In this document: positions 14,242 to 38,925 of the stretch, piece after piece | Position numbering within the stretch: the stretch's first letter is position 1 | Layout of the letters: every line of letters begins with the position of its first letter | Assembly: GCF_000826645.1 (NCBI RefSeq) | Contig: NZ_JXJP01000001.1 | Span: 186,001 to 250,000, forward strand | Source: Psychroserpens mesophilus | GTDB taxonomy: Bacteria > Bacteroidota > Bacteroidia > Flavobacteriales > Flavobacteriaceae | Direction: 5' to 3' | DNA length: 64,000 bases | The notes under the pieces: generated by a model | The model's database searches: none | What the model saw: the letters and a program-made list of their open reading frames with translations, nothing else | Told to the model about the DNA's origin: nothing | Position numbers and translations under genes: made by a program

Positions 14242-14246
14242 TTTTC

Positions 14247-14643: not shown

Positions 14644-14654
14644 ACACCAATTAC

Positions 14655-15186: not shown

Positions 15187-15193
15187 CACAAGA

Positions 15194-17691: not shown

Positions 17692-17693
17692 CA

Positions 17694-19879: not shown

Positions 19880-19881
19880 TT

Positions 19882-20199
19882 ATGGAACAACCTAATTTGT
19901 CTTATATACATAGCATGTCCGGTGGTGATAAAGCTTTTGAACAAAAGTTAATCAATATTATTAAAGTAGAATTTCCAGAAGAAAAACAAATCTATTTTGA
20001 TAACATAACTGCTGAAAACTATAAACTTACTGCTGAGAATGTTCATAAACTTAAACATAAAATTAGTATTTTAGGCCTTGAGAAAAGTTATGAGATTGCA
20101 GTAGCGTTCGAAAATAATTTGCTTGAGGGTGAAACAACACTGCGAGACGAATTTGAATCTATTTTAACCATCATGACTAATTATTTACAACAGTTATAA
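19882..20199 (+). CDS. Stand-alone Hpt phosphotransfer protein
   Basis: 105 aa, four-helix Hpt fold. The phosphohistidine is His55 in ENVHKLKHKISILGL, matching the Hpt pattern H-K-L-K-G with His in the place of Gly. Moves phosphate between receivers; in this operon it would connect the single-domain receiver with the LytTR regulator. Fifteen bases separate it from the LytTR gene. Confidence 0.88.
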   Translation: MEQPNLSYIHSMSGGDKAFEQKLINIIKVEFPEEKQIYFDNITAENYKLTAENVHKLKHKISILGLEKSYEIAVAFENNLLEGETTLRDEFESILTIMTNYLQQL

Positions 20200-20214
20200 T
20201 TAGGTATAAAATTT

Positions 20215-21020: not shown

Positions 21021-21090
21021 GTAATCATAACAATTTTGTGATTAATAGCAAAAGTTTAGGCAAAGGAGACATCTTTTGCCTTTTCTGTTT
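21021..21090 (+). ncRNA. Candidate LytTR-controlled small RNA, about 70 nt
   Basis: Interval from about 7 bases after the TATATTTG box at 21007 to the T-tract of the terminator at 21058-21090. It has no plausible coding frame of its own and is separated from the next gene by a second complete promoter (21120-21208). The end points are estimated. Confidence 0.45.
21058..21090 (+). terminator. Intrinsic terminator
   Basis: 10-bp stem with one G-T pair (AGGCAAAGGA at 21058-21067, TCTTTTGCCT at 21072-21081), loop GACA, T-rich tail TTTCTGTTTT. Confidence 0.8.
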
Positions 21091-21119
21091 TATACAAGGT
21101 TGTAAAAAGTTAGAAAAAC

Positions 21120-21208
21120 CATTCATCTACACTTATTTGTCAGCCAACGTTCTAAGCTTTGTGTCAATCGAAAATCAATTAATACACTGCCCTAACAAGA
21201 TATATTTG
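21120..21208 (+). promoter_or_regulatory. LytTR-type site and promoter, gene 21230
   Basis: CATTCATCTACA at 21120-21131, second unit CAGCCAACGTTC 21 bp later, and TATATTTG at 21201-21208, again exactly 81 bp from the first base. This places the transcript start near 21215, just before the ATG at 21230. Confidence 0.72.
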
Positions 21209-21229
21209 CCTCAGAATCTAAAAGATAAG

Positions 21230-23833
21230 ATGATGAGTAAATTTTACACGATAAAAAATCTATTAATTGTATTGGGATATTTTTTGATAAGTTTAATCAC
21301 AAATGCTCAAGATATTCCATTCAATTGTGATTACAACGCTTACTTATTTCAATTTAATGATGTGTACGCTATAGATTTAGCTTCAGGGAATTCATATCAA
21401 GTTGCGGCAGATGTAACAACAGGAAACATTAATGCAGCAGCTTATAATCCTGCTGACGGCTTTATTTGGGGATCTTTAACGTCTCCGGAAAAATCTATTG
21501 TTCGTATTGGTAAAAACTTTACAACAACAACGTTTTATATAGAAGAATTACCAACAAGTAACAGATATGTTGGTGACGTTAGTAGTGAAGGGATCTATTA
21601 TCTTAAAGGCGGTGGGACAACGTATTACAAAATTGATCTTAATCCAGATTCTGAAAACTATATTCAACATCAGGCTACAGAAACTTTATCTCAAAACATA
21701 AATGTTCATGATTGGGCATTCAATGCTGTAGACGGCATGATGTATACAGTTGAGAAGAATTCTAACATATTATATCGTATCGATCCTTCAAATGGAAACG
21801 TTCAAGCTATCGGCGAAGTGCCAATCTTATCAGGATTAAGCTACACATATGGTGCAGTTTATTTTGATGCAGACGGTCGCTTTTATGTTTCAGCAAATCA
21901 AACAGGAACTATATATGTCATTCAAAGTGTTCAGAATTTAACTGTAAACGGAGGAATGAATTCTAATTTGTTCGCTTTCGGACCTTCAAGTTCAAGTAAT
22001 GATGGAGCTCGTTGTCCAACAGCTCCTGTACTTCAGGAAATTTGCGATAATGGAATTGATGATGATGGTGACGGGCTTATTGATTGTGAAGATCCGTCAT
22101 GTTCTGGTTTTGGCGATTGTGCAGTGATTGTTCCACCAACTTCAGGAGGAAACGCTGGAGGACTTGAAAGTAATAATAGACTTTCAGAACAAATTAATAA
22201 GCGAAACTTTAATCGCGCTAAAACAAGTTTTAAATTTGATATGAGTTCAGCAAGACGAATAGAGAAATCTAATAGTTATGCACAACGCAATGCGAACTCT
22301 TCATTTACTCTTGAAGATTTTATTCCTATCGAAACTATTAATGAAGATGAGGTTATTGAGTCAACACCTTCAGATTTATTGAGCATAACGAATGCTACAG
22401 ATATATACGCCGTAGATTATCTCAAAAACGGCAGTCCGATAGCTTCAATATTGGCTTTAAAAACCGAGAATGGCGTTTACGAGCACACCAAATATATATG
22501 TGATAGATTATTAGGAGCAGAATTAATTTCGGTGTCAACTATAGATATTAATGAGCAGTCATTTATTAAATCAATTATAAAAAATGTAGATGGAACTTTT
22601 GAATTTGTTTTAAGCTTATCAGCAAAAGTGATTAATAACGATGAAAACTTTGCCATCGAGAGTCACTGGAATTTAGATCAGTACGAACAAGACGTGACAT
22701 TTTATAACTTTCAGATTTGGTCAAACTCTATGGATGATTTATATCGTTTAGGAGAAGAAGTTCTTAACTTGATTAACATTGAAAAACCAATTTCAGATTA
22801 TAACAACTCATCAGCACCAACCGTATTTGTTAGAAAAGGAAGATATACAAATGGTGCATTAGATTTACAAATTATTAATACAAATGCAACAGATAATGTA
22901 ACCTTTGATGCTGGTTTCAGAATAACAGAAACGAGTGAATTTGATAACATGAGTTCTACAATTGATTTGAATTCCAACTACATTACAAACCTTCAAGTAG
23001 AAACTGGTAACCTTTTTGATGTCGGATTCAGAATTGGCGATGGCATAGCAACACCAGATGATTTATTTATGTCTGATGGTCCATGGGGAATTGATGATTC
23101 GCAAGCGGGTACAACAGTATCGACATATGACGTACTACCAAATGTTTTTAATTTTGAAACCGATGAATTTCCTGTTGAACGTAACGTGCAATTACATGCA
23201 AGTACAAATACCTATGTTGCTGCATACAGAGCGTTAACACCTAGGTTTAAGGCCGTAGATTTAACCTTTTTCAATAGTTTGAAATTTCAAGCTGAAGGCA
23301 CAGGGACTTTAGAAATTACCTTAGTAAAACAAAGTATTTCTAGTTGGGAAAATCAATTTAAAACAACTATTGATTTATCATCTAACTTATTAGATTATGC
23401 ATTGCCAATATCGAGTTTTACATCTGCAATTGGAGGTGAACTAGTATTAAACGATGTAGTTACAATCGTGTTTACCATGGTGTCTGAATCTGGAATGACA
23501 GAAACAAAAATGTTAACGTTAAATGATTTACGTTTTTCAAAGGAAGATGCGTTATCTGTTGTTAGTTCTAAATTGGAACAAAACCAAATGATAGCCTACC
23601 CAAATCCAATGACCTCTAAGACAACTATTCAGTTTACTACGAATAAAACGGAAACTGTTCAATTTGTAATATATGATCAATTAGGAAAAGTTGTGTTTCA
23701 AACCAATTATAGAACAACACCTGGGACCAATAAAATTCAATTAAACAAACAACTGTTTCGTTCAGGTCTATACATCGCCAAATTAATAAGTCAGCATAAC
23801 CTTTATAATCCCCTAAAATTGATAGCTAGATAA
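21230..23833 (+). CDS. T9SS-exported protein with DUF6923-like propeller and MopE-type motif
   Basis: 867 aa from ATG 21230 (or 21233). Signal peptide (IVLGYFLISLITNAQ). Residues about 25-260 look like a DUF6923-type beta-propeller (FQFNDVYAIDLASGNSYQV; AYNPADGFIWG; YKIDLNPDSENYI; GAVYFDADGRFYVSAN). At about 270-291 is a MopE-type metal-binding motif, EICDNGIDDDGDGLIDCED. A LruC-like or adhesin-like region of unknown fold follows (LKNGSPIASILALKTENGVYEHTKYICDRLLGAE in outline). The C-terminus (about 795-867, YPNPMTSKTTIQF ... SGLYIAKLI) is a T9SS type A sorting domain. The frame is open further upstream, but the predicted promoter at 21201 rules out that longer start. Its own LytTR-type promoter makes it a likely matrix or surface protein of the regulon. 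Confidence 0.85.
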   Translation: MMSKFYTIKNLLIVLGYFLISLITNAQDIPFNCDYNAYLFQFNDVYAIDLASGNSYQVAADVTTGNINAAAYNPADGFIWGSLTSPEKSIVRIGKNFTTTTFYIEELPTSNRYVGDVSSEGIYYLKGGGTTYYKIDLNPDSENYIQHQATETLSQNINVHDWAFNAVDGMMYTVEKNSNILYRIDPSNGNVQAIGEVPILSGLSYTYGAVYFDADGRFYVSANQTGTIYVIQSVQNLTVNGGMNSNLFAFGPSSSSNDGARCPTAPVLQEICDNGIDDDGDGLIDCEDPSCSGFGDCAVIVPPTSGGNAGGLESNNRLSEQINKRNFNRAKTSFKFDMSSARRIEKSNSYAQRNANSSFTLEDFIPIETINEDEVIESTPSDLLSITNATDIYAVDYLKNGSPIASILALKTENGVYEHTKYICDRLLGAELISVSTIDINEQSFIKSIIKNVDGTFEFVLSLSAKVINNDENFAIESHWNLDQYEQDVTFYNFQIWSNSMDDLYRLGEEVLNLINIEKPISDYNNSSAPTVFVRKGRYTNGALDLQIINTNATDNVTFDAGFRITETSEFDNMSSTIDLNSNYITNLQVETGNLFDVGFRIGDGIATPDDLFMSDGPWGIDDSQAGTTVSTYDVLPNVFNFETDEFPVERNVQLHASTNTYVAAYRALTPRFKAVDLTFFNSLKFQAEGTGTLEITLVKQSISSWENQFKTTIDLSSNLLDYALPISSFTSAIGGELVLNDVVTIVFTMVSESGMTETKMLTLNDLRFSKEDALSVVSSKLEQNQMIAYPNPMTSKTTIQFTTNKTETVQFVIYDQLGKVVFQTNYRTTPGTNKIQLNKQLFRSGLYIAKLISQHNLYNPLKLIAR

Positions 23834-25147: not shown

Positions 25148-27211
25148 TTATTTTCTAAATACTGGTCCGTCAAATAAACGCCATTTAAACCGTAAGCCAA
25201 GTTCAGTAAAGGTAAAACCAGAAGCTGTAGCTGAAGCGATATTACTATGTGTTCCATAGAGATTTAACATGCTGCGTTCTGAAAACTTATAACCTAACTT
25301 TCCCTGAAATCTGTATGTGGATTGCCTTTCATCATCTTCAATAAATTGTACACCAGTAGCAGCTGTTAATTCATAAAACCATTGTTTTGCTTTAGCTGTG
25401 TTTTCATCTTTAATGAGATTTAAAAATATTTCTCCTGCATTAAAACGTTCGGGACTAAAATAAATCGTTGGTACTTGATCCTTAAACGTGATGTATTGAT
25501 AATTGAATCCAACTTTTAAAGATGGTTTTCGAAGTACGTTGTAATACAGCGATGTGAATAGTAAATTTCTATTGTTGCCATCATTTTGTGAGGTGTACAT
25601 ATATTGTGTAAACCAACCTAAGTTAAAGTTTGTACTCAAATTATAATTTGCATAATAGTTGTTTTGAATGATCTCACGATCTAACAAATCGGCATTAAAA
25701 CTTTGCACTTCGCTTTTGTAACCAATATCTAAAGTTTGTAATTTAAATGGTTTGATATTAAATGACACATCGGTTAGTAATTGGGTGTAATCATTGTTTT
25801 CTGCTTTTGCTGAGGTTAATCCTGTTGTACCATTAAATGTTACATTATTTAGTAATTGATAAGATAGGCCTATTGAGAAATCATTAGAACTCGCACTATT
25901 CTTAGTGAATGTATTTGTAGTATTTCTATAATTATAATTACCTAATATTTTCAGTTTAGTCGATAATGGAAATGCGACCATAGTATTAAAATAATAAGCG
26001 TTGTTGTCGCCATTATCAAATGTATATGCAGCTCGTGAATCTAAAGTTGGAGAAAAATTAATGTTCAATTGGTTGATGAAATTAACAGCATCTTTTTGAT
26101 TATCGTAAATGTTTAATGTTTGCTCTGCTGCTGAATACGCATCATCATAAAACCCTAAAGCTTTTAAAACATTGGCTTTTCCAAGGTTTCCATCAAAAGA
26201 TGTACTATCGTTTACTAAGATTCTATTATAATCTTCAAGGCTCTTTTTAAAATTACTTTTGTAAACATTTAATGTTGCTCTTAAAGCTAATATCCAATTT
26301 TCATTTGACTCTTTTTCGATTAACATATTGATTACTTTTTCAGCTTGCTTATACTTTCTATTCCAAATTAAAGCTTGAACATGACGTTCTGTAGTTTGTT
26401 GAATTTGCTTCGCTTCGGTTTCAGATGTTAAACTATCATAAGCTTGTTGGCTAATTTGTAATGCCTTGATATCTTTTTCATTTAAATGCGACACCAAAGA
26501 TAAACCGTTTAATGATTCTAATTGATTGTCATTATTTTCTCCTAATCTTTCATAAGTGGCCTTTGCATCATCTAACTTATTCCAAATCAAATACAGATTA
26601 GCAAGGTTTAATAAAGTTTCTTTGTCTTCTCCAAACAACTCTAAGTTTTTGGTTAATAATAATTCGGCTTTATCATAATTTTGTGTTTGCTGATTTTGAT
26701 AAGCATAACCTAAATAGATATACTTTTTAGAAACCAGTGCATTTGGGTTTTCAGGTAAAACATCTAATGCTTTATTGACATAAGTTAAGGCAGTATCATA
26801 TTCCTTTAAATTAGATAAGGTATTTGCATAACCTAATAGTGCAGGAAAGCTTTGAGGAGATTCAGTAACTAAATCTGAATAGTAGAATTTGGCAGCTTTA
26901 AACTTTGAGTTCCATAATAAGGATTCACCATAATTTAACTTCACTTCAAAATCGTTTGGGTAATCATTTAAAAGATTTGTAAATATTACATTAGCTGCTT
27001 CAGCATTACCATTTAACCCAATAGCTCTTCCGTAACATAACCGAGCTGTTTTATGTTCTGGATAGTCAGTTAATATCGTTTCAAAAAAAGTTTCCGCTTG
27101 CGCATATTGTCCAGTTTCTAAATAGGTAAATCCTTCTTGCATTTCTTGTGCATTACTCATAAAAAAGAGTAGTAAAAGCATACTTATAATTACTGATTTT
27201 AAAGTCTTCAT
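25148..27211 (-). CDS. TPR and outer-membrane beta-barrel protein, possible polysaccharide exporter
   Basis: 687 aa from the ATG at 27211 (MKTLKSV; longer upstream frames lose the signal peptide). Signal peptide ends near FFMSNAQ. About 25-400 are tetratricopeptide repeats (YLETGQYAQAETFFETIL; ALLGYANTLSNLKEYDTAL; LANLYLIWNKLDDAKATYE). About 410-687 is a beta-barrel of 14-16 strands ending in ELGLRFKWRLFDGPVFRK. A periplasmic TPR scaffold joined to a C-terminal barrel is the architecture of the exopolysaccharide outer-membrane exporters BcsC, PgaA and PelB; the final barrel is like YaiO-type proteins. The neighbouring STAS, flippase and glycosyltransferase genes support that role, but no direct homology to a specific exporter is claimed. 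Confidence 0.75.
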   Translation of the reverse strand: MKTLKSVIISMLLLLFFMSNAQEMQEGFTYLETGQYAQAETFFETILTDYPEHKTARLCYGRAIGLNGNAEAANVIFTNLLNDYPNDFEVKLNYGESLLWNSKFKAAKFYYSDLVTESPQSFPALLGYANTLSNLKEYDTALTYVNKALDVLPENPNALVSKKYIYLGYAYQNQQTQNYDKAELLLTKNLELFGEDKETLLNLANLYLIWNKLDDAKATYERLGENNDNQLESLNGLSLVSHLNEKDIKALQISQQAYDSLTSETEAKQIQQTTERHVQALIWNRKYKQAEKVINMLIEKESNENWILALRATLNVYKSNFKKSLEDYNRILVNDSTSFDGNLGKANVLKALGFYDDAYSAAEQTLNIYDNQKDAVNFINQLNINFSPTLDSRAAYTFDNGDNNAYYFNTMVAFPLSTKLKILGNYNYRNTTNTFTKNSASSNDFSIGLSYQLLNNVTFNGTTGLTSAKAENNDYTQLLTDVSFNIKPFKLQTLDIGYKSEVQSFNADLLDREIIQNNYYANYNLSTNFNLGWFTQYMYTSQNDGNNRNLLFTSLYYNVLRKPSLKVGFNYQYITFKDQVPTIYFSPERFNAGEIFLNLIKDENTAKAKQWFYELTAATGVQFIEDDERQSTYRFQGKLGYKFSERSMLNLYGTHSNIASATASGFTFTELGLRFKWRLFDGPVFRK

Positions 27212-27256
27212 ATCTGTTAGATTTGTATAACTGCAAGTTACGGACGAATACCACTT

Positions 27257-27289
27257 CATTCATCTACAGCAAACTACCATCCGTCGAAA
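27257..27289 (+). promoter_or_regulatory. LytTR-type direct repeat between exporter and STAS genes
   Basis: CATTCATCTACA at 27257-27268 and CATCCGTCGAAA at 27278-27289, 21 bp apart. It lies between the divergent genes at 27211 and 27365. Unlike the other sites there is no TAnnTTTG at the expected distance (27338), so the controlled promoter is unclear. Confidence 0.5.
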
Positions 27290-27364: not shown

Positions 27365-27643
27365 ATGGCTTTACAAATTTTAGAAGAAAACGGAACATTT
27401 CAATTACATGGAAGTTTAACTACAACAAACACCAAATCGTTTATTATACACTTTGAACATATTATCAAATCCATGAAAGATGTGACTGTAAATATTGATA
27501 AAGTTGATGTTATTGACCACAACGGAGTAGAAGCGCTTAAAGCTTTGATGCGTTTGGCTTTACATTCTAACCATATCTTTTCGGTTATTGGAAATGGATG
27601 TAAAGAGATTTATGATGATTATAAAAGTTCATTTGCTGCTTAA
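27365..27643 (+). CDS. STAS domain protein, atypical
   Basis: 92 aa, anti-sigma factor antagonist fold (GTFQLHGSLTTTNTKSFIIHFEHII; VTVNIDKVDVIDHNGVEALKALM). The position normally holding the phosphorylated serine (D-S-S-G) reads D-H-N-G, so regulation by an RsbW-type kinase is unlikely. It ends with the motif GNGCKEIYDDYKS, shared with the second STAS protein at 41938. It is 28 bases before the flippase gene and probably co-transcribed. Upstream TTAGCGTCA (27322-27330) resembles TTAGCGCCA before the paralogue. Confidence 0.8.
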   Translation: MALQILEENGTFQLHGSLTTTNTKSFIIHFEHIIKSMKDVTVNIDKVDVIDHNGVEALKALMRLALHSNHIFSVIGNGCKEIYDDYKSSFAA

Positions 27644-27671: not shown

Positions 27672-28919
27672 ATGCAAGTTATTTCAATTATTAAAAACAA
27701 ACAGTTGTCTCCAGAACAGTTATTTATGTTAAGTGTATTGGCTGTAAATGGAGGAAATTATTTGTACAATCTCATTTTAGGACGTGTTTTAGGTCCTGAA
27801 CAATTTGCAGATGCAGCAGTGTTAATTACCTTTTTATTGGTTTTGTCATTTGTTGCCATGACGTTTCAATTGGTGACGGCAAAATTCTCTGTCGTTTTTG
27901 AAAAAAATATTTTCAATACTTTCATTTCCAGAATATATAAAAACGCTACAATTGTTGGTGTTGGTTTAGGTGTTTTAATCATAGTATTTTCAAATCAATT
28001 GCAGCAGGTTTTTCATACTTCAAGTACGACCATGTTTGTCATTTTTGGTATTGGTGTTCCACTATATTTTCTAATGAGTGTGAATCGGGGCATTTATCAA
28101 GGTCAAAAATCCTTTAAAAAGTTATCGGTTACTTATCAGGCTGAAATGTTAAGCAGATTAGGCATTACATTAGTATTACTGTTTTTGTTTACTGTTCAAT
28201 CTTCAGTGGTTATAGCTATTGGAATATTAATCTCTTTCGGATTTGGATTAGTGCCATTTGAACTTAAAAATTTACGCTTCAAAACTTCGGTATCACTTGA
28301 AAGAGAACAATCAAAGCAAGTTCGAAATTTTTTCATCATTACAGCATTTTATGAACTGACACAAATCATTATAAACAATAGTGATATTCTATTAGTAAAA
28401 CATTATTTTGAATCGTATGAAGCAGGCTTGTATGCATCTTTAGCTTTAATTGGTCGTATTGTTTATTTTATTGCCTGGATGTTTGTTATGTTATTATTAC
28501 CAACAGTAGTTCAACTTAAAAAGGAAGGGAAGGCAACAGCTCCAGTCTTATTTAAATATGTTGGGTATATTGTTGTCATTGCATTGACTATTATTTTGGC
28601 CTGTGCTTTGTTCCCTGAAACAGCAATCACACTATTATTTGGGGAGCAATATTTAGCAATGGCACCATTACTATGGAAATATGCTTTGGCAACCGGAGTT
28701 TTTGCCATCTCAAACATTTTTGCGTATTACTATTTGTCTTTAGATCGGTATGTACCAGTAATTTTATCAGGTCTCTTCGGACTGCTTCAAATGGGATTGG
28801 TTATCTTCTTTCATGAGAGTTTAGAACAAGTCGTTCATATGCAAATTGTAGCCATGTTTATGCTATTACTATTTCAAATGATCTATTTCAGTTTTGATTC
28901 TAAATCGAAATCTTCATAA
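27672..28919 (+). CDS. Polysaccharide flippase-like membrane protein (MATE/MVF fold)
   Basis: 415 aa with about 12 membrane helices. The N-terminus VLAVNGGNYLYNLILGRVLGPEQFADAAVLIT is the characteristic opening of Wzx/PST-type polysaccharide transporters, and helices 7-8 (NNSDILLVKHYFESYEAGLYASLALIGRIVYF) match the family as well. Such proteins move lipid-linked sugars or support polymer export across the inner membrane. Position next to a GT4 enzyme and a TPR/barrel protein suggests a role comparable to PelG, on functional grounds only. Confidence 0.85.
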   Translation: MQVISIIKNKQLSPEQLFMLSVLAVNGGNYLYNLILGRVLGPEQFADAAVLITFLLVLSFVAMTFQLVTAKFSVVFEKNIFNTFISRIYKNATIVGVGLGVLIIVFSNQLQQVFHTSSTTMFVIFGIGVPLYFLMSVNRGIYQGQKSFKKLSVTYQAEMLSRLGITLVLLFLFTVQSSVVIAIGILISFGFGLVPFELKNLRFKTSVSLEREQSKQVRNFFIITAFYELTQIIINNSDILLVKHYFESYEAGLYASLALIGRIVYFIAWMFVMLLLPTVVQLKKEGKATAPVLFKYVGYIVVIALTIILACALFPETAITLLFGEQYLAMAPLLWKYALATGVFAISNIFAYYYLSLDRYVPVILSGLFGLLQMGLVIFFHESLEQVVHMQIVAMFMLLLFQMIYFSFDSKSKSS

Positions 28920-28941: not shown

Positions 28942-29010
28942 CATTCATCTATAGTAAAAAGCATCCTGTCTACACTCGTCAATTTTACTCAGATTTATAG
29001 TGCAAATTTG
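28942..29010 (+). promoter_or_regulatory. LytTR-type direct repeat and promoter, GT4 gene
   Basis: CATTCATCTATA at 28942-28953 and ATCCTGTCTACA at 28963-28974; the TCTAYA cores are 21 bp apart. CAAATTTG at 29003-29010 is a 7/8 match to TAnnTTTG and lies 61 bp after the first unit. Transcript start would be near 29017, before the ATG at 29048. Confidence 0.55.
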
Positions 29011-29047
29011 TAGTATCAATTATAAAACACACATAAAAAATACGACC

Positions 29048-30253
29048 ATGAAGTTAGCAATCGTTACAGCATATCCACCAAGTAAAGTCACTTTAAATGA
29101 ATATGCTTTCCATTTAGTAAAACAGTTTAGACAAAAAGATACCGTTTCTGAAATTATACTCCTAACAGATAAAACTGAAGGCGCGAAAGATTTGGCGTTT
29201 ACTGAAGATGGATGTAAAATAACAGTGAAAGAGTGTTGGTCATTTAACAGCTACACTAACCTTATCAAGGTCACAAAAGCAATTCATACTTCAAAACCAG
29301 ATGCAGTGCTGTTTAACTTACAATTCATGAAATTTGGTGATAAAAAAATCGCTGCAGCTTTAGGTTTGATGTTACCGTTAGTTTGTAAATTGAAACGTGT
29401 TCCAAACATTGTATTATTACATAATATTTTAGAAGAAGTCGATTTAGGATCTGCTGGATTCACCACTAATAAATTTATGCAAAAAGTTTATGGATTTATA
29501 GGAACAAGCTTAACGAAATTAATTCTTCAAGCAGATACCGTTGCAGTAACCATGCATAAATATGTTAGCATTTTAGAAGAAAAATATAAGGCGAAGAATG
29601 TCCAGTTAATTCCACATGGAACGTTTGAAATTACTGAAGAACATCCCGATTATACCATACCTGAAGGACCATTACAAGTGATGACTTTTGGAAAGTTTGG
29701 AACTTACAAAAAAGTAGAAGCTATGATTGAAGCAGTAGAACTGGTTCGCGCGTCTTCAGGATTAGATTTAGAAGTTGTAATCGCAGGAACAGACAATCCA
29801 AATGTGCCAGGATATTTAGCTAAGGCTCAGGAAGATTATAAACATGTGCCTCAAGTTCGATTTACAGGTTATGTTGAAGAAGATGAGGTGCCAACATTGT
29901 TTAATGAAAGTGCGGTTGTTGTGTTTCCATATACATCTACAACAGGAAGCTCTGGCGTTTTGCATCAAGCAGGAAGTTACGGAAAAGCCGTTGTGATGCC
30001 AGATTTGGGAGATTTAGCGTTGTTGGTTAAAGATGAAGGTTATCAAGGTGAGTTTTTTGAGCCAACTTCAGTGGAAAGTTTAGCAACAGCAATCGAAGCT
30101 ATTGTAACCAATGAAACTTATAGAATATCTTTAGGAAAAGCAAATTATAAAGCCGCTACTGCATTTCCTATGTCTAAAATTACAGATATGTATTTGAATG
30201 CATTTCAAACTATAATAACTAGTAAGGCAAAATTAGAATCGTCTATTGCTTAG
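29048..30253 (+). CDS. GT4 family glycosyltransferase
   Basis: 401 aa, GT-B fold. N-terminal acceptor domain (MKLAIVTAYPPSKVTLNEYAF), and in the C-terminal nucleotide-sugar domain VMTFGKFGTYKKVEAMIEA, LEVVIAGTD, VRFTGYVEEDEVPTLFNES and the donor-binding region VVFPYTSTTGSSGVLHQAGSYGKAVV in which the usual E-x7-E is replaced by a Ser/Gly-rich loop. Probably adds a sugar to an exopolysaccharide precursor. A GTG at 29000 is in frame but falls before the predicted transcript start, so ATG 29048 is chosen. Its 3' end overlaps the convergent hydrolase gene by 11 bp. Confidence 0.87.
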   Translation: MKLAIVTAYPPSKVTLNEYAFHLVKQFRQKDTVSEIILLTDKTEGAKDLAFTEDGCKITVKECWSFNSYTNLIKVTKAIHTSKPDAVLFNLQFMKFGDKKIAAALGLMLPLVCKLKRVPNIVLLHNILEEVDLGSAGFTTNKFMQKVYGFIGTSLTKLILQADTVAVTMHKYVSILEEKYKAKNVQLIPHGTFEITEEHPDYTIPEGPLQVMTFGKFGTYKKVEAMIEAVELVRASSGLDLEVVIAGTDNPNVPGYLAKAQEDYKHVPQVRFTGYVEEDEVPTLFNESAVVVFPYTSTTGSSGVLHQAGSYGKAVVMPDLGDLALLVKDEGYQGEFFEPTSVESLATAIEAIVTNETYRISLGKANYKAATAFPMSKITDMYLNAFQTIITSKAKLESSIA

Positions 30254-31760
30254 TGATATATGTAAAGGATTCTTTTTCATTTCCTTTTTTATCAATAAAC
30301 CCATAATGCTTTTGAGCATTTTTACGCCAAGGAAGTCTACCAACGACTTCCTTTGGTATTTCAGTAAAGTCGTATAATGTCCAAGACATATATTGCATAT
30401 TTGTTTTTGCAATGATTTCTTGGGCTTTTTTGTAATAGTTGGCTTGGTCTTCTTCTGAACTCCCAAAAGGTTTCCAAAAGCCACTATAAGATGATATTCC
30501 AAATTCTCCCATCACTATAGGTTTGTTTGGGATTTCTCTTTTTAATGCATGGATTGAAGTTTCTAATTGGTTTACATCTTCATAATAATGAAAGCTTATA
30601 AAATCAACCTTGTCTTTAAGAATCGTAGCACTTTCTGTATTAGACCAACCTATGGTTACAGGATGAATGTTGTCAATAGATTTAACATGGTTAATCATGT
30701 TCTCAAGCCATGAGGTCACATTGTGTTGCCCTCTAGATTCAAAATCTAAATTAGGTTCATTTTTAATATCCCAAGCAAGAAGTGCACTGTGATGTTTTAA
30801 AGTAGACACTATGGTTTCAGCATGGCGCATATTAAGTGTCCAGTCCATAACTGAATAATCACCATAAAAATCAAAAAGAGTAATCATGACCTTCAATCCC
30901 GAAGCTTCAGCTAAATCTAAGGTGCGTTTTAGTTTTTCTAATTTCTTTGGATTAACATTTGCTTTGCCGAAATCTTCATATTGAACAAAAATCCGAACCA
31001 TATTTAATCCAGCATTTTTAATGATGTTGAAATCTTTAGAAATAATTGCTTCAGAAAACGAATCGCCAAACATATCCCAAGGAGAATCTTGCGGATAATA
31101 ATTAATGCCTTGAATGTCAAGATGTTTTGTGTTCAAGGCTAAAGCTACGTTTTCAGTTTCCTGAGTTGTTTCTTTCACCTGATGCCTGATGCGCCAAAAT
31201 CCATCTTCTAACAAAAGTACAACTTTATAGGTTGAGGTTTCAGTGGTTTCTAACACAAGGGATTCATCTTTAAATACGCGTTTGTACTCCACAACATCAT
31301 GGTCTGTGATGATAGCTAATTGTCCATCTTCACTAAAAAACTCTAGAGTTGGATGATGCTCTAAGGTTGTAGATTCAATGCTAATGTTTTCAGCAGTATT
31401 AGACGCAATAAATTCATACAGATTTTTACGTGCATTATCGGTATAAAAGTCTTTGATGCCTTCAGTTGTGTTGGTTTTATAGGCAATATGTTTTACGTAC
31501 CATGCATCTAAATAATTGTTTTCAATTGCTTTTAGGTTTTCATTATCCATAAAACGACCTTCATTGGTCAGTGGTGACCAAACAACAGATGGTGAATATT
31601 GATCTATTTTCTTCAACTCTGTGTGAAGTATTGTACTTCTATCAGCTCCTGTATTTAGGTAACCCAACAAAGCACTAATTCCTGAAATTACTAAAGCAAC
31701 AATCATGATATAGGAGGCTATTATTATAACGCGTAGTATATTCTTATTGAGGTTTACCAT
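30243..31760 (-). CDS. Membrane-anchored glycoside hydrolase, GH5-like
   Basis: 505 aa. One N-terminal membrane helix (about 9-33, IIIASYIMIVALVISGISALLGY), a region of about 170 residues of uncertain fold, and a (beta/alpha)8 domain from about 210 (GINYYPQDSPWDMFGDSF). The two catalytic glutamates of clan GH-A are visible: acid/base Glu335 (WDIKNEP) and nucleophile Glu419 (VMGEFGI). Related to cellulase family 5 / mannanase-type enzymes. A hydrolase tethered on the periplasmic side in a polysaccharide export locus is comparable to PslG or the hydrolase part of PelA, which trim or release polymer (functional inference). Last gene of a three-gene minus-strand operon. Confidence 0.8.
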   Translation of the reverse strand: MVNLNKNILRVIIIASYIMIVALVISGISALLGYLNTGADRSTILHTELKKIDQYSPSVVWSPLTNEGRFMDNENLKAIENNYLDAWYVKHIAYKTNTTEGIKDFYTDNARKNLYEFIASNTAENISIESTTLEHHPTLEFFSEDGQLAIITDHDVVEYKRVFKDESLVLETTETSTYKVVLLLEDGFWRIRHQVKETTQETENVALALNTKHLDIQGINYYPQDSPWDMFGDSFSEAIISKDFNIIKNAGLNMVRIFVQYEDFGKANVNPKKLEKLKRTLDLAEASGLKVMITLFDFYGDYSVMDWTLNMRHAETIVSTLKHHSALLAWDIKNEPNLDFESRGQHNVTSWLENMINHVKSIDNIHPVTIGWSNTESATILKDKVDFISFHYYEDVNQLETSIHALKREIPNKPIVMGEFGISSYSGFWKPFGSSEEDQANYYKKAQEIIAKTNMQYMSWTLYDFTEIPKEVVGRLPWRKNAQKHYGFIDKKGNEKESFTYITKQ

Positions 31761-32971
31761 AGCGTTGTATTTTTAAATGTTTTTTCTAATCCAGCAGTTT
31801 GAATAACGATTGTATAATCATCGTTTTTTACAAGATCTGGTTTTAACTTAAATTGAGCATAACCATTTGCAGAGGTTGTTTTTATTGACTCAATAGTCGT
31901 GTTGTTTTTATAAATCTGAAGTTTTACAGATAAGCCATCTGGTATCATTTGATCCATAAAACTTTTCAAAGGACCAATAGTGATTACTCTATTATTTTCT
32001 GAAAATTGTACTTCAAAATCAGAAATTGCTTGTTTATAGTTTAGGCTTAAAATATTGCTTTGTGCCATTCCAATGACATAAGCTTGAATTTGCCAATGTG
32101 AACCATAATCTGGATGAATCATTTTGGCTGTAGCAATACCATTAATCGTGCTCCCGTAAGTTTTTAAGATGTTATTTTTTTCGTTAGATATACTAAAAGT
32201 TACAAAAGTGCCATCACTAACAATATTGTTGTCTTTATCTTTTAAAATTGACGTTTCAAATGTTGTAATTTGATTCCCATCGGCATACCCATGAGGCCGT
32301 TTTGCAGAAATTGAAAATCCTACCGGAATTGCGGGCATTACATTAATGGTAAATTCTTTTGAATTGATATTTAAACATTCGGAAGACACTAGCATTCGTC
32401 CGCTTTCTTTTTTAGAATAAATGTTTTTATAGGCGACTAAATGCTTGGTTTTTATCGTATCACTAATTTCAGTACTTAAAAACTGATGCTTGGTTTTAAC
32501 GGTTGTGTCTTCTGGTAAAGGGTTGTCTAAAGCGTCGGTTGGTATAACCACCATCATGGTATAATCTGTTCCTCCAGCTTGTATACTTGGCGGACCAATA
32601 TACGTTTCCATAGAGGCAACTTCTGGTTTGGCTTTAATGGTAAATTGTCCTGAAAGAGAGATGTTACCATGAATCAATTTCCAACTAACTATTCCTTTTT
32701 TTTGAGTTATATGTTTCGGAATAGAATAATTTAAAATACCTCCTTCTATATACGGTCGAATTAAAGTTGAACCATAACTATTTGTACAATACAACAAGGG
32801 TTCTACGCCTTCAGAATTTGAAAAACGTAATGTGATTTTATGCCCTGCAATAAATTCAGTTTGTACAGTTTGAAGCTCTATTTCTGAAGCCTTATCAGCT
32901 TGTTTGATAGCCGCAAAAGATGATAAGGATATCAATACAAGTAAAAATAAATATGCAGGTAGAACTCTCAT
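31754..32971 (-). CDS. Exported Ig-like multidomain protein
   Basis: 405 aa. Signal peptide to about residue 20 (ISLSSFA). All-beta: probable Ig-like or bacterial-invasin-like domains, with segments such as FIAGHKITLRFSNSEGV, SISAKRPHGYADGNQITTFET and ILKDKDNNIVSDGTFVTFSI (the 'V-x-D-G-T-x-V-x-F' pattern of Big_1/invasin domains) and GIATAKM. Likely periplasmic or surface scaffold. It overlaps the hydrolase gene by 7 bp and the large membrane protein gene by one base, so the three proteins are tightly coupled and may act as a complex. Confidence 0.7.
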   Translation of the reverse strand: MRVLPAYLFLLVLISLSSFAAIKQADKASEIELQTVQTEFIAGHKITLRFSNSEGVEPLLYCTNSYGSTLIRPYIEGGILNYSIPKHITQKKGIVSWKLIHGNISLSGQFTIKAKPEVASMETYIGPPSIQAGGTDYTMMVVIPTDALDNPLPEDTTVKTKHQFLSTEISDTIKTKHLVAYKNIYSKKESGRMLVSSECLNINSKEFTINVMPAIPVGFSISAKRPHGYADGNQITTFETSILKDKDNNIVSDGTFVTFSISNEKNNILKTYGSTINGIATAKMIHPDYGSHWQIQAYVIGMAQSNILSLNYKQAISDFEVQFSENNRVITIGPLKSFMDQMIPDGLSVKLQIYKNNTTIESIKTTSANGYAQFKLKPDLVKNDDYTIVIQTAGLEKTFKNTTLW

Positions 32972-35900
32972 TAGTTAGGATTGCCAATATAAGAATTAGT
33001 TTCTATTTTAATAAAGCTATAATTTGGATGTGAGACTGGTTGCAACTCTGAATTAGCGTGGTTATCTATTCGTTTAGAGATAATCTTCCTCGAAATTTGG
33101 TCGTTTGGAAGACCGTTGACATAAATATTATCCATAATATCATTAATGACATTAACCTTGCTTTCATTAAGAATGGCATATTCAAAATCTTGCTTTCGTT
33201 GTTGTCTAATGCCTTCTTTTACAAACAGGTGATCTACCCACAGTATGGTTTTATGTTCATCATAATATGTGATTAATAATTGCGGAATTGTAATTTCTTG
33301 TAATCCACTATTAAATAATTGTCCGTTAATTTCCTTTTCAGAAATCTCAATATTACTTAGTGTTAAGTTTTTAAATAAATCAGAACCTGAAACATTACCT
33401 GCGGCTTGTAAATTGAATTTTGTTGGTTGTTCTTCAAATTCTACAGGAGTAAATTCATCAGGATTAAATGTGTCTGGAATCGAGTCTTTCGTTCTAGACC
33501 AAGCAATACCTTCAAAATTAATTTTAAATGCAGTAGTTTCTTTTGGCATTAACTTATGCTTCATATGATACTTAGCATTATAACTAGCGAGTTCTTTATT
33601 GACGTCATTATAGAGTGTTCCTTTTAGCACGACATCTGCAGGAACATTATCTATATTTTGTATTTCTCCAACTATGGCATAGTGGTTTTCGTATTTAACT
33701 AATTTAGCGGAAAGCACTTCTAAAACAGGCTGTTTTAAAACATCTTCATGATGTGTTTGTTCTGTAGTGATACGTCTACGACCTTGATTATGATAACTGG
33801 TTGAATTAGCTGAATATAATTGGTCAGGTGGTAAATCTGTATTGAGTTGATCAGGTTCTAAATACCATTTGCCATTGAGTTTAGACAATATTTTGTAGTC
33901 TACTTTATTAATCTTTTCTAACGGTGTAATCCATTTTGTAATTACTTTTACAGTCGCCATGTTATTGGTTTGTGTAGTCACCATAGTTTCAATAGCATCA
34001 AGCTTTGCATAACTACTTAGTAAACCATCGGTAACAGAGACTTCAAGCATGTATTGGGAAATGGTCATGTTGCTATTTGGGTTTATCAAATTAAAAGCCG
34101 TCTCAAATTCTTTAAAATCTAATGCATCATAGTAGGCTATAATTGCATTTTCAGGATTGTGTTGCGAATCATTCTTGATGTAAAATTGATACATGGCCAA
34201 ACAGACTAATAATGCAAGGACAAGAGACCAAATATGAGTAACTTTTAAAACTGTAGGCGAGAATTTTGAATAGTCATGTTTAAAGTTTAAAAACGCAGGT
34301 GATGCTTTAAATTTCGTTTTTAAAGCATTGATCCATAACATGTGTATGTTAAGAAGGAAGGCCAATAATACTGTTAATAATGGTATCGTACCCCAAAGTA
34401 TCTTTTGCCATTTTGCAACATCATCTTTGGGTAAAATCGAAGAGACAGGCGGAATGTTTAAGCGTTCCCAAACCATGATTCCATTTTCTAATTGTCTTAA
34501 ACGTTGCCAGCCGCAGAAATAAAGGATCGGGTCGTAAAATTTGTCATTAGAAAAAATATATTTAAGATTATATTTTTCAGGCCTTGTTAAAAATTGTTGC
34601 AAAGATCCAATTCCTGCAACGCCTTTAAATTTTGAATTCTCTAAACGTTCTATAGGTCTAGTTGTTAATTCTGGAAGTCGTCTTGCCGAATGATAATTTC
34701 CATCAACTGTCATTGCATTCGTTTGCGCACTTAACCAAGCCATTTGATCTCCAAAGCCTAAAGTTAGAAATCGCCATTGATCATGGTTATCTTGATTTAA
34801 GAAATTCACGATTGGGAGCATTTTAATTGTATCAGGTTGTGATGGCCTGAAATAACTAAGGCTCATTGTGAAAATGGTCATAAAAATAAATAAACCAGCA
34901 AGTATTCCGCCAATTATTCTATGATACACGGCACCAAATTTAGACTGAATTAAAGTTTTTAAATCACCTTGAACAAAACGATAAGCGAATTCACCCATAA
35001 TAGGTAAAGCCATAATGGAAGCCCAAAGCGTAAAGCGATCGAGTGTTAAAATATTAAAAGCAGTTTCTCCAAGTATCGTTTTGGGGATGGCAGTTGTTCC
35101 TCCAGTTCCTAATATCGTCAATAAGGTGAATGATAATCCGAAAAACAAATAGCGTTTGCTATAATATCTGTAAAATAAATATGGTAATAGGATTAGTAAA
35201 ATGCCCCAAGGAATGATAAAAAACACTAGTCCAGAAGACGTAATTTCTAAAAAGTTATCACGTGAACCATGCGGAATAGGAACCTGAGTAATAGGATTGT
35301 TTTTTGAATTAATCCAATACGGTAGTATACAGCCTATTATGATGATAAGAGATAATAGTCCAAAGCTTATAATACGTTTTAAAAGTTTGAGAAAACTTTG
35401 TATAAACACTCTAATGGTAACGGCTTTTATGGTGTCCACACTTTCACGAGATACATCCATAATTACCATGCCTATTAAAGGGAAAATAAAGAAAATCATT
35501 CCAAAAATTGGAGTCACATGATGTGATGTAACGGTTACAGCTATGAGGGATAAGGAGGTGGCTAAATACCAGTACTTACCTGTCTTTAGCCACAAATAAA
35601 TTTCGGGTAAGGCATGCATTAAAACTGAAATACCTACAATACTAGGTAATTGACCAAAAAGATGAAGTGTTTCAACAAATGAAGAAGAAAATACAGCTAA
35701 CAAGGCTGCGTAACCTGCAGTTGTTCTGTTTCCCGTGATTAATAAAGAGAAGCGATAAACACCTGTAATAAATAAAAGGATACTAATTATTGCAACAGTA
35801 AAAAGTCCAAACTTTAAACCACCAATCATAGACAGTAACGCAATAGATTGATGTACTAGTGGAGGATAACTCATCACTGTAAATCCAGTATACCATTTGT

Positions 35901-36060
35901 AGTTCCAAGGTTCAAACCAACTATTGGCATAATGGTCAGCGAAGAATAAATGAATTAGCGCATCATAAGTTGTTTCCAAAGTGAAAAAGATGGAACTTCC
36001 ATGAAATGCTAAACCTAAAAGTAGAGCTACAATTAAATATTTATTCGTTGTTTCTTTCAT
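32971..36060 (-). CDS. Large GT-C-like membrane protein (PTPS-related domain) with periplasmic tail
   Basis: 1029 aa. The first about 560 residues hold 12 or more membrane helices. The first loop reads TTYDALIHLFFADHYANSWFEPWNYKWYTGF, the acidic first-loop motif (D..H) of GT-C glycosyltransferases, and the protein resembles the '6-pyruvoyl-tetrahydropterin synthase-related' membrane family. Another helix lies near 605-625 (HIWSLVLALLVCLAMYQFYI), followed by a soluble part that contains an NTF2-like stretch (NAIIAYYDALDFKEFETAFNLINP) and FxLYD-like beta domains (VLEVLSAKLVKYENHYAIVGEI). Proposed role: polymerisation or transfer of an undecaprenyl-linked sugar on the periplasmic face. First gene of the minus-strand operon; TATCTTTA (7/8 of a -7 box) occurs twice on the minus strand at 36088-36108. 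Confidence 0.75.
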   Translation of the reverse strand: MKETTNKYLIVALLLGLAFHGSSIFFTLETTYDALIHLFFADHYANSWFEPWNYKWYTGFTVMSYPPLVHQSIALLSMIGGLKFGLFTVAIISILLFITGVYRFSLLITGNRTTAGYAALLAVFSSSFVETLHLFGQLPSIVGISVLMHALPEIYLWLKTGKYWYLATSLSLIAVTVTSHHVTPIFGMIFFIFPLIGMVIMDVSRESVDTIKAVTIRVFIQSFLKLLKRIISFGLLSLIIIIGCILPYWINSKNNPITQVPIPHGSRDNFLEITSSGLVFFIIPWGILLILLPYLFYRYYSKRYLFFGLSFTLLTILGTGGTTAIPKTILGETAFNILTLDRFTLWASIMALPIMGEFAYRFVQGDLKTLIQSKFGAVYHRIIGGILAGLFIFMTIFTMSLSYFRPSQPDTIKMLPIVNFLNQDNHDQWRFLTLGFGDQMAWLSAQTNAMTVDGNYHSARRLPELTTRPIERLENSKFKGVAGIGSLQQFLTRPEKYNLKYIFSNDKFYDPILYFCGWQRLRQLENGIMVWERLNIPPVSSILPKDDVAKWQKILWGTIPLLTVLLAFLLNIHMLWINALKTKFKASPAFLNFKHDYSKFSPTVLKVTHIWSLVLALLVCLAMYQFYIKNDSQHNPENAIIAYYDALDFKEFETAFNLINPNSNMTISQYMLEVSVTDGLLSSYAKLDAIETMVTTQTNNMATVKVITKWITPLEKINKVDYKILSKLNGKWYLEPDQLNTDLPPDQLYSANSTSYHNQGRRRITTEQTHHEDVLKQPVLEVLSAKLVKYENHYAIVGEIQNIDNVPADVVLKGTLYNDVNKELASYNAKYHMKHKLMPKETTAFKINFEGIAWSRTKDSIPDTFNPDEFTPVEFEEQPTKFNLQAAGNVSGSDLFKNLTLSNIEISEKEINGQLFNSGLQEITIPQLLITYYDEHKTILWVDHLFVKEGIRQQRKQDFEYAILNESKVNVINDIMDNIYVNGLPNDQISRKIISKRIDNHANSELQPVSHPNYSFIKIETNSYIGNPN

Positions 36061-36121: not shown

Positions 36122-36210
36122 TAGTCATCTACAGAAATCTACCATTCGTCTACATTAACTGTTGTACCAACTAAATAAACAATTTTAAGGCGTCAATCAG
36201 AGTACATTTG
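36122..36210 (+). promoter_or_regulatory. LytTR-type direct repeat and promoter, receiver-GT2 gene
   Basis: TAGTCATCTACA at 36122-36133 and CATTCGTCTACA at 36143-36154 (21 bp), third weaker unit GTACCAACTAAA at 36164. TACATTTG, an exact -7 box, at 36203-36210 is 81 bp from the first unit and 60 bp from the second. The minus-strand operon starting at 36060 diverges from the same region. Confidence 0.72.
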
Positions 36211-36237: not shown

Positions 36238-37422
36238 ATGAGAGTATTAGCAATAGACGATCAACAATTAGTTTTATTACCATTAGAAAAACGATTAACA
36301 GCCCTAGGATACGACGTAAAAATTGAGACTGATGCGCTGAAGAGTTTTGAACTTTTCAACGAATTCAAACCAGACTTGGTAATCGTCGACATTAATATGC
36401 CTGGTATCTCTGGCTTAGAAATTGTAAAATATATCAGGCATACAAAAGATTCTGATACACCTATCATGGTTTTATCAGGTAATACTCAAGATCTTATTAT
36501 TACAAATGGGTTCGATTTGGGTATTGATGACTATATGAAAAAGCCCTTGAGTTTAAATGAAATTTGCGCTCGGGTTAAGCGCCTTATTGGTACTCCAGAA
36601 TTGCAAGGGAAAACAGAGCGCTGTGATGTGATGATTCAACAAAGATGCGTTGGTGTGGTCATTCCTTGTTATAATGAAGAGGAGCGATTATTAAGTAAAG
36701 AATTTACTAATTACATTGATAAAAATTCAGGATATCATTTGTGTTTCGTGAATGATGGTAGCAAAGATCAAACCTTAAAAGTGTTAAAAGATTTACAAAA
36801 AGGAAGAGAAGATTTTATTACTGTTTATGATTGTGAGCAAAATGGAGGTAAAGCTGAAGCTGTAAGATTAGGAATGTTGCACATGGCTAAAAAAGAAGAT
36901 TTAGATTATATCGGGTTTTTAGATGCCGATTTATCAACAGACTTAGCCGATTTCGATGACCTAGTGAAAACAATAGAGCATTCAGAATTCAAAATTGTTA
37001 GTGGATCCAGAATCTCTAGAATGGGAGCTAATATAACTAAAGAATCTGCTAGAAAGATTATTAGCTTAAGTATCAATTTTATTATCAGAAAGATTTTATC
37101 AATGGACTTTAAAGACACTCAGTGTGGCGCTAAGATTTTCCATAAAGATGTTATCAAAATTGCGTTCAGTGAAAAATTCGTGACACAATGGATTTTTGAC
37201 GTTGAAATTTTCAAAAGAATGACCATTCATTTTGGTTTGAAAGAAGCAAAATCAATGTTGTGTGAACAACCTTTAAAACGTTGGATTCATGCAGATGGGT
37301 CTAAACTTTCAATGAAAGATTCTTTTAAAATTATAGGTCAATTAGGACAAATTGCATGGGTTTATAGAAGAAAAAAAAGCAAAAATAAGATTGCTGTTTC
37401 TTCAACAATGAAAGTGGCTTAA
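36238..37422 (+). CDS. Response regulator receiver fused to GT2 glycosyltransferase
   Basis: 394 aa. Receiver about 1-118: MRVLAIDDQQ (Asp8/Asp9), phosphoacceptor Asp51 (LVIVDINMPGISG), Lys in YMKKPLS. Then a full DPM1-like GT2 domain from about 137: GVVIPCYNEEERLL (139 onward), FVNDGSKDQT, metal-binding Asp229-Ala-Asp231 (FLDADLSTD), VSGSRISRMGANITKESARK and DTQCGAKIFHKDVIK, as in polyprenyl-phosphate glucosyl/mannosyl transferases. The fusion means that sugar transfer to a polyprenyl phosphate could be switched by phosphorylation. The start is ATG 36238: an in-frame TTG at 36208 overlaps the -7 box and cannot be transcribed. Own LytTR-type promoter. Confidence 0.92.
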   Translation: MRVLAIDDQQLVLLPLEKRLTALGYDVKIETDALKSFELFNEFKPDLVIVDINMPGISGLEIVKYIRHTKDSDTPIMVLSGNTQDLIITNGFDLGIDDYMKKPLSLNEICARVKRLIGTPELQGKTERCDVMIQQRCVGVVIPCYNEEERLLSKEFTNYIDKNSGYHLCFVNDGSKDQTLKVLKDLQKGREDFITVYDCEQNGGKAEAVRLGMLHMAKKEDLDYIGFLDADLSTDLADFDDLVKTIEHSEFKIVSGSRISRMGANITKESARKIISLSINFIIRKILSMDFKDTQCGAKIFHKDVIKIAFSEKFVTQWIFDVEIFKRMTIHFGLKEAKSMLCEQPLKRWIHADGSKLSMKDSFKIIGQLGQIAWVYRRKKSKNKIAVSSTMKVA

Positions 37423-37432: not shown

Positions 37433-37957
37433 ATGTATTTACCAGTAAAAACAGGAATTATACTCGTATTCCATAATTATGAAAAGGAGATGGATATCAA
37501 TCTGTTTCTAAACTGCTGTAATAATGCGAAAAGCATTCAATTTTGTTTAGTCAATAATGATAGCAAAGATAACACCTATTCTATGCTCAAGGCAGTTAAA
37601 GAATCTTGTGAAAATGTTTCAATCGTAAACATTAAAAAATTTAAGTCTGATATCTCTGCAGTGAAAGCTGGCGCAAGATATATGTATAATAATTTCAACT
37701 TAAATCATATAGGATTTGTAAATCTTAATTTAATAAATAGACGTTATCAAAGTTTAGATAAAGTAATCTATAAAATTGTTGAACATCAAGATTCTATAAT
37801 TAAATATGACCAAGCAATTTTAAAAAGTCATCGTATGAAAAGAACATTGTTTCAAAAGCTGTTTTCAGTAATCGATTATTTAAAAAGAATAGAGATTGAA
37901 AGAGAAATGCATCAGATTCAATATCAAAATGAAATATTTAAAAAGCTATTAAAATGA
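37433..37957 (+). CDS. Degenerate GT2-like protein (pseudo-glycosyltransferase)
   Basis: 174 aa. It aligns by eye with the GT2 domain of the preceding gene: LVNNDSKDNTYSMLKAVKE against FVNDGSKDQTLKVLKDLQK, and HIGFVNLNLINRR against YIGFLDADLSTDL. The metal-binding D-A-D is N-L-N and the nucleotide-binding N-D-G is N-N-D, so it should be inactive. The domain stops early and is replaced by a basic helical C-terminus (IEIEREMHQIQYQNEIFKKLLK). Ten bases after the fusion gene and overlapping manA by 4 bp, so it is part of the operon. Probable regulatory or structural partner of the active GT2 (inference). Confidence 0.7.
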   Translation: MYLPVKTGIILVFHNYEKEMDINLFLNCCNNAKSIQFCLVNNDSKDNTYSMLKAVKESCENVSIVNIKKFKSDISAVKAGARYMYNNFNLNHIGFVNLNLINRRYQSLDKVIYKIVEHQDSIIKYDQAILKSHRMKRTLFQKLFSVIDYLKRIEIEREMHQIQYQNEIFKKLLK

Positions 37958-38925
37958 AAGTATATCCCATAAAATTTAATCCAATCCTTAAAGAAAAAAT
38001 TTGGGGAGGAAATAAACTCAGTACAATTTTTGCAAAACAAACCAATAAGCAAGATGTAGGTGAAAGTTGGGAGGTTTCTGATGTGAATGGGAATATTTCT
38101 GTAGTAAGCAATGGCATTTATAAAGGCAAAAACCTCAAATCTTTATTAATAGAGCATGAAGCTCTTTTTTTGGGAGCATCCAATTTTGAAAACTTTGGCC
38201 ATCAATTCCCACTCCTAATAAAATTTTTAGATGCCAATACAGATTTGTCTGTTCAAGTACATCCCGATAATGATATGGCTAAAAAATACCATAACTCTTT
38301 TGGTAAAACCGAAATGTGGTATATCATGGACAGTGATGATGATGCCAATATTGTGATGGGATTAAAGAACGAAAATGCCAATCCACAAATCTTAAATCAC
38401 ATCACTTCAGAAAATATTGAAAGTGTATTCAATAGAGAATGTGTAAAAAAAGGTGATAGCTTTTTTATTCCAGCTGGTAAAATTCATGCCATTGGCGCAG
38501 GAGTTTTAGCAGCAGAGATTCAACAAACCTCAGATATAACCTATCGTGTTTACGATTGGGATCGCACAGATGATAAAGGTGAAAAAAGGGAGTTACATAC
38601 AAAGTTAGCAGAAAAAGCAACAAAGCAATTTCACTCTAACGGAAAGTCAAACTATCAACTTCAATCTAATAGAAGTTCGAATATTGTTGACTGTGAGTAT
38701 TTCACAACAAATATTATTAATGTTGAAAGTGAGTGCGTTAAAGATTATTCAAATTTAGATTCCTTTCTCATTTTTATGTGTGTAGAAGGCCAAGTTAACA
38801 TCACTGCAGATGGAGAATTCGAAACTTTACAAATGGGAGAGACCATTTTGTTACCAGCAATTACCAATCGGGTGATGTTTAGTTCTGAAAATGCTAAATT
38901 GTTAGAAGTTTATGTAAATGCATAG
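37954..38925 (+). CDS. manA: Type I mannose-6-phosphate isomerase
   Basis: 323 aa. Interconverts mannose-6-phosphate and fructose-6-phosphate, feeding GDP-mannose synthesis. Cupin zinc-site residues are present: DLSVQVHPDN (His103), KTEMWY (Glu120) and IPAGKIHAIGAG; the QQTSDITYRVYDWDR segment is typical of the short bacterial PMI type. Overlaps the pseudo-GT2 gene by 4 bp (ATGA), linking mannose precursor supply to the polysaccharide locus. Confidence 0.92.
   Translation: MKVYPIKFNPILKEKIWGGNKLSTIFAKQTNKQDVGESWEVSDVNGNISVVSNGIYKGKNLKSLLIEHEALFLGASNFENFGHQFPLLIKFLDANTDLSVQVHPDNDMAKKYHNSFGKTEMWYIMDSDDDANIVMGLKNENANPQILNHITSENIESVFNRECVKKGDSFFIPAGKIHAIGAGVLAAEIQQTSDITYRVYDWDRTDDKGEKRELHTKLAEKATKQFHSNGKSNYQLQSNRSSNIVDCEYFTTNIINVESECVKDYSNLDSFLIFMCVEGQVNITADGEFETLQMGETILLPAITNRVMFSSENAKLLEVYVNA

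Follow-up and report, generated by a model that had tools for sequence, protein, structure and literature searches.

We describe a response regulator in which a receiver domain is fused to a family 2 glycosyltransferase (GT2), encoded in a 64,000-nucleotide stretch of the Psychroserpens mesophilus genome (hereafter, the window). With moderate confidence, we interpret this protein as a phosphorelay-controlled polyprenyl-phosphate hexose synthase that feeds the adjacent GT-C fold transferase and has displaced an unregulated GT2. The domains, the catalytic and phospho-acceptor residues, the promoter architecture, the synteny and the replacement pattern that underlie this interpretation are all directly apparent in the sequences (Table 1).

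Table 1. Features of the window around the receiver-GT2 fusion gene and the signaling operon
Feature	Position	Strand	Remarks
LytTR-type motif, single copy	14246-14258		upstream of the signaling operon
LytTR-type direct repeat, perfect	14654-14687	+	upstream of the signaling operon
Signaling operon	14773-20922	+	gene starts: single-domain receiver 14773, H-NOX 15194, PAS histidine kinase 15733, FIST 17694, histidine kinase 18833, Hpt 19882, LytTR response regulator 20215
Hpt	19882-20199	+	HxLK motif
LytTR response regulator	20215-20922	+	
TPR protein, PgaA-like C-terminal part	25148-27259	-	probable outer-membrane exporter
Small STAS-domain protein	27365-27643	+	just under the Pfam cut-off
Wzx-like polysaccharide flippase	27672-28919	+	
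GT4 glycosyltransferase	29000-30253	+	
Glycoside hydrolase (GH)	30243-31760	-	GH2-type TIM barrel match
Big_1 domain protein	31754-32971	-	
GT-C fold membrane protein	32971-36060	-	1029 aa; divergent neighbor and constant genomic partner of the fusion
LytTR-type direct repeat	36125-36154	+	two copies, 21 bp apart
-7 promoter box TACATTTG	36203-36210	+	Bacteroidota-type; conserved 61-bp offset from the motif
Receiver-GT2 fusion	36238 (ATG)-37422 (stop)	+	394 aa
Fusion, receiver domain	36238-36591	+	residues 1-118
Fusion, linker	36592-36645	+	residues 119-136; short
Fusion, GT2 domain	36646-37422	+	residues 137-394; NDGS, D229-A-D231, DTQCGAK and WIFDVEI motifs
Dead GT2 paralogue (pseudoenzyme)	37433-37957	+	same operon, 10 bp after the fusion
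manA (mannose-6-phosphate isomerase)	37954-38925	+	4-bp overlap with the pseudoenzyme gene

The first-pass annotation of the window, the coordinates of which proved exact, had claimed that a complete receiver with Asp51 and a complete GT2 with the metal site D229-A-D231 are joined in one protein, and this is what we find: a single open reading frame (ORF) contains both Pfam domains, Response_reg (residues 3-114, 1.3e-22) and Glycos_transf_2 (residues 140-306, 2.9e-21), and the same layout recurs in more than 70 loci. The chance that the fusion is an assembly artefact or a frameshift merging two genes is negligible, given that we found no point in its support and that orthologues with the identical single-ORF layout in many assemblies refute it. 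A longer variant starting at the TTG codon at 36208 is unlikely because this codon falls within the conserved -7 box. Among 100 distinct orthologous sequences, mostly from Flavobacteriaceae, the receiver residues D7, D51, S80 and K102 are 100% conserved and D8, the second residue of the D7/D8 acidic pair, is conserved in 99%, so that the receiver possesses the acidic pair, phospho-acceptor Asp, Ser/Thr and Lys of response regulators; the metal site residues D229 and D231 are conserved in 99% of the same sequences, and the linker varies in both sequence and length. The residues matched, in an alignment inspected by eye, to those of the PhoB-type alpha4-beta5-alpha5 face are similarly conserved (E108 and R112 invariant, D98 in 99%). 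In the predicted structure of the fusion (mean pLDDT 81), the receiver half is canonical, with the best matches to YycF, VicR and KdpE (Z about 20). A plasmid search with the fusion protein as the query yielded no match. One genome placed in a different family of the same class encodes a fusion that is 83% identical to that in the window and resides in a syntenic locus (L162, 8671-9852); either the entire locus was transferred or the genome is misassigned.

The label 'DPM1-like' that had been attached to the GT2 half is fair: this half has a GT-A fold with a D-x-D site and is nearest to the polyprenyl-phosphate GT2 subgroup, the closest solved folds to its predicted structure being dolichyl-phosphate-mannose synthase (DPMS; 5mm1, Z 20.0, 215 residues aligned, rmsd 3.1, 27% identity), GtrB and ArnC. 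GtrB and ArnC have C-terminal transmembrane helices, a trait that the fusion does not share, with no 19-residue stretch in the entire protein reaching a hydropathy of 1.6; eukaryotic DPM1 likewise has no transmembrane helices. The fusion protein, therefore, must bind the membrane in some other way; a search for an amphipathic C-terminal helix as an anchor gave no striking result (moment 0.26-0.40). The enzyme probably transfers a sugar to a membrane lipid that serves exopolysaccharide synthesis, and this sugar is probably mannose because manA belongs to the operon and also adjoins a receiver-less GT2 in a relative (L138); the adjacency of manA varies, with some orthologues having no manA nearby.

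The fusion gene belongs to a conserved exopolysaccharide locus with a syntenic block that is present in most orthologues and consists of genes for a TPR/beta-barrel protein, a STAS protein, a Wzx-like flippase and a GT4, followed by the divergent genes for the GH, the Big_1 protein and the 1029-aa membrane protein. The latter has no match in Pfam or NCBIfam and was assigned by fold, from a model of moderate confidence (mean pLDDT 62): residues 1-400 adopt a GT-C fold most similar to STT3 (Z 18.4), AglB (17.8) and ArnT (16.8), with ALG12, PMT4, PimE and DPY19 also among the best matches. An NTF2-like domain (residues 634-739) follows the membrane part of this protein. GT-C enzymes draw sugars from polyprenyl carriers, and ArnC supplies ArnT with its donor; a GT-C partner that uses a polyprenyl-linked sugar is thus consistent with a DPM1/ArnC-like GT2 making the donor. 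The GT-C gene is present in 22 of the 116 genomes of relatives, and the fusion is found in 19 of these 22 and in none of the 94 without GT-C. The three remaining GT-C genomes (G027, G032 and G041) have, in place of the fusion and likewise divergent from GT-C, an intact GT2 that lacks a receiver. All 8 genomes that had no GT-C in the fetched stretch or were rechecked proved to encode one somewhere.

The genes of this locus appear to record the replacement of a stand-alone GT2 by the fusion. In the GT2 tree, which includes some long branches and has an uncertain root, the GT2 domains of the fusions form one clade (support 100/97), and the dead GT2s form one group (97/89) that joins the tree on the side of the stand-alone GT2s from the GT-C locus. 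The dead paralogue in the window, which has lost the NDGS, DAD and DTQCG motifs, is probably a descendant of the stand-alone GT2 of the locus. An intact stand-alone GT2 next to GT-C is absent from all 103 loci with both fusion and GT-C (a dead copy is present in 45 and no copy in 58), whereas 11 of the 16 GT-C loci without a fusion in the locus possess one. These counts are not independent, since several loci derive from identical or closely related genomes, and L041, counted among the 11, belongs to an assembly that looks frameshifted. We rejected this locus as a natural case of receiver loss because several of its genes are split. The replacement is not strict: in an Aquimarina genome (G453), the locus contains an intact stand-alone GT2 and the fusion is encoded outside it. 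The most likely scenario suggested by these patterns is that the fusion displaced an unregulated GT2 and thereby brought the supply of lipid-linked sugar under the control of the relay.

The dead paralogue does not look like a decaying pseudogene, a possibility that we set aside given that dN (0.17-0.44) is well below dS (>1.1), with a rough ratio of 0.14 to 0.35 and dS near saturation. Such constraint on a catalytically dead gene makes a non-catalytic role probable, and its product is likely to be a pseudoenzyme subunit. Duplicated fusions in other genomes have diverged in both directions, with the GT2 dead or altered and the receiver intact in L164 (7212-8303) and L057 (6222-7292), and with the GT2 intact and the acidic pair of the receiver altered in L163 (7445-8584) and L045 (11158-12396). 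In three loci from Algibacter-like genomes, a stand-alone receiver with an intact phospho-site, 62 to 66% identical to the receiver of the fusion, is encoded directly upstream of the fusion (L005, 10001-10372; L013, 10001-10372; L140, 8779-9150).

The first-pass annotation had also assigned a LytTR-type promoter to the fusion gene, and the upstream sequence bears this out; the relay operon has a promoter of the same type. LytTR-type sites are direct repeats of about 9 bp with a 12-bp spacer, that is, a 21-bp spacing. The region preceding the fusion contains TCATCTAC at 36125-36132 and CCATTCGTCTACA at 36142-36154, the repeated element being TCRTCTAC, with its second copy inside CCATTCGTCTACA; this direct repeat is kept in many orthologues and lies upstream of the -7 box. 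Among the 81 distinct copies in the fetched loci, a TAnnTTTG box starts 61-63 bp past the motif start in 27 and 82-83 bp past it in 4 more, compared with 5 scattered boxes in an upstream control stretch of equal length. Six sites in the 3.68-Mb genome carry the motif CCATTCRTCTACA (none in the reversed control), and 4 of them are in the window, with a chance probability of about 1e-6: those at 14246 and 14654 precede the signaling operon, that at 21119 precedes a secreted protein and that at 36142 precedes the fusion; by coordinates, the other two are inside predicted ORFs. A degenerate scan of the whole genome for direct repeats with 2 mismatches gave no excess over the reversed control, and only two exact direct-repeat sites, both in the window, stand out genome-wide. 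The LytTR protein encoded at 20215, by virtue of its proximity, may be the regulator that binds the predicted site before the fusion. The secreted protein that follows the relay genes (21038-23833) has a DUF6923 domain and a T9SS tail; its motif and a -7 box located 82 bp further downstream are both within the listed ORF, and the true start of the protein is likely to be a downstream Met-Met-Ser-Lys stretch.

The signaling operon encodes a complete gene set for a multi-step relay, with both histidine kinases devoid of receivers. The Hpt protein is present where it had been placed, and its His55 is conserved in 28 of 28 copies; each of the 19 sampled genomes with the fusion also has orthologues of Hpt and LytTR. 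The relay is found as well in genomes that lack the exopolysaccharide locus and in the three with a receiver-less GT2, indicating that it can do without the fusion. In Aquimarina, where the fusion is not linked to the locus, it adjoins an additional Hpt that is 52 to 61% identical to the Hpt of the window, with the main relay retaining its own Hpt and LytTR, and in L164, two copies of the fusion flank a LytTR gene. Both arrangements favor phosphotransfer from Hpt to the fusion; given about 20 other receivers in the genome, the assignment of the phosphodonor by neighborhood is uncertain. The H-NOX protein (15194-15733) retains, as judged by eye, the YxSxR motif and the proximal His; from these residues, it probably binds heme and could sense NO for the exopolysaccharide locus.

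Taken together, these observations suggest a response regulator with a polyprenyl-phosphate hexose (probably mannose) synthase as its output domain, which would supply the neighboring GT-C transferase of the flavobacterial exopolysaccharide locus. Phosphate would pass from the histidine kinases, with their associated H-NOX, PAS and FIST sensors, through the single-domain receiver and Hpt to two terminal receivers, namely, that of the LytTR regulator, which would drive transcription of the relay genes as well as the locus that contains the fusion gene, and that of the fusion, where Asp51 would set enzyme activity. The relay, which appears to turn genes on, could thus also control the enzyme directly, a twofold action that the first-pass annotation had proposed and that the sequence evidence supports in part. 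Phosphorylation of D51 would most likely induce dimerization of the receivers via alpha4-beta5-alpha5 and, as a result, change the activity or the membrane association of the GT2. The unregulated GT2, still at work at this locus in some relatives, would have been displaced by the fusion and would survive in the window as the dead paralogue. In this scheme, the phosphotransfer from Hpt, the effect on activity, the sugar, the lipid, the binding of LytTR and the dimer mechanism are the elements that we infer. A more specific version, which we put forward tentatively, is that an H-NOX relay acts twice, on transcription through LytTR and on the lipid-sugar synthase itself, providing fast control over polysaccharide assembly that is free of c-di-GMP, with the displaced enzyme converted to a tuning pseudoenzyme subunit.

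Several other explanations have to be weighed, in particular, for the role of the receiver. It might be a genuine phosphorylated switch that governs location or the choice of partner (GT-C, the pseudoenzyme or membrane docking) rather than turnover. The lack of a transmembrane segment, which makes some form of recruitment necessary, would fit this possibility, as would the purifying selection on the dead paralogue in the same operon and the extra stand-alone receivers beside the fusion in three loci; however, the retained PhoB-type dimerization residues favor self-association, and the partner itself is hypothetical, so we consider this explanation rather unlikely. The receiver could also be passive, a dimerization module or a phosphate sink, in a locus regulated purely at the level of transcription via LytTR, considering that the locus operates with a receiver-less GT2 in three relatives that have the same relay, and that the loss of D8 is tolerated in duplicate copies (L163 and L045). 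The invariance of D51, S80 and K102 in 100 sequences and the persistence of an intact phospho-site in a copy whose GT2 is dead (L164, 7212) are hard to reconcile with passivity, which makes such a role improbable.

Alternatively, the GT2 could transfer its sugar to a non-polyprenyl acceptor, such as a glycan chain or a protein, with the receiver regulating that reaction. The GT2 fold is broad, and the identity of the GT2 half to DPMS, ArnC and GtrB is only about 17 to 27%, but the top structural matches are polyprenyl-phosphate enzymes, the fusion is constantly paired with a GT-C fold protein, and in four of the loci L165-L169, related stand-alone GT2s adjoin putative membrane proteins of 448-478 aa, judged membrane-like from their first residues. 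We accordingly assign a low probability, slightly below that of a passive receiver, to a different acceptor, and prefer the synthase whose activity would be set by Asp51.

If this interpretation is correct, two-component signaling would reach beyond gene expression to govern how much polyprenyl-linked sugar donor is supplied, and sensing through H-NOX and FIST would be tied to exopolysaccharide in marine flavobacteria. Natural matched controls exist, namely, versions of this locus with a receiver-less GT2, versions with the fusion, and fusion duplicates in which either the receiver or the GT half has decayed; such variants make the value of direct phospho-control testable through gene swaps.

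The principle of a receiver joined to a GT2 is already known: MTH_548 of Methanobacteriaceae combines one or more receiver domains with a BcsA-like GT2 (PMC5847659). The GT2 type, the lineage, the locus and the replacement history are different here. The archaeal protein contains a BcsA/cellulose synthase-like domain (PF13641), for which the fusion scores 24.6 bits, below the cut-off of 27, compared with 76.6 bits for PF00535, the family of its DPM1/ArnC-type domain in Bacteroidota; furthermore, unlike MTH_548, the fusion is embedded in a relay and a polysaccharide locus. The two proteins probably arose independently. Beyond MTH_548, our literature search, conducted outside the main reviews of response regulator outputs, returned no paper dealing with this locus or with response regulators of a DPM1-like type.

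With DPMS, GtrB and ArnC, the fusion shares the fold, the D-A-D site and, likely, a GT-C partner, as in the case of ArnC and ArnT, in contrast to the absence of a transmembrane helix that sets it apart from ArnC and GtrB; to our knowledge, none of these three enzymes carries a receiver. PleD, CheB and PorX similarly couple a receiver to an enzyme with activity presumed to be controlled by phosphorylation, but their output is a signal molecule or a signaling modification, whereas that of the fusion is predicted to be a biosynthetic lipid-linked donor. Finally, the locus resembles Pel/Pga-type loci in bringing together a TPR outer-membrane exporter, a GT4, a flippase-like membrane protein and a glycoside hydrolase, with no Pel-specific family detected at the profile level (Pfam and NCBIfam, E 0.001). 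In the Pel system, the c-di-GMP receptor is PelD; in this locus, a phosphorelay acting on the lipid-sugar synthase would exert control instead.
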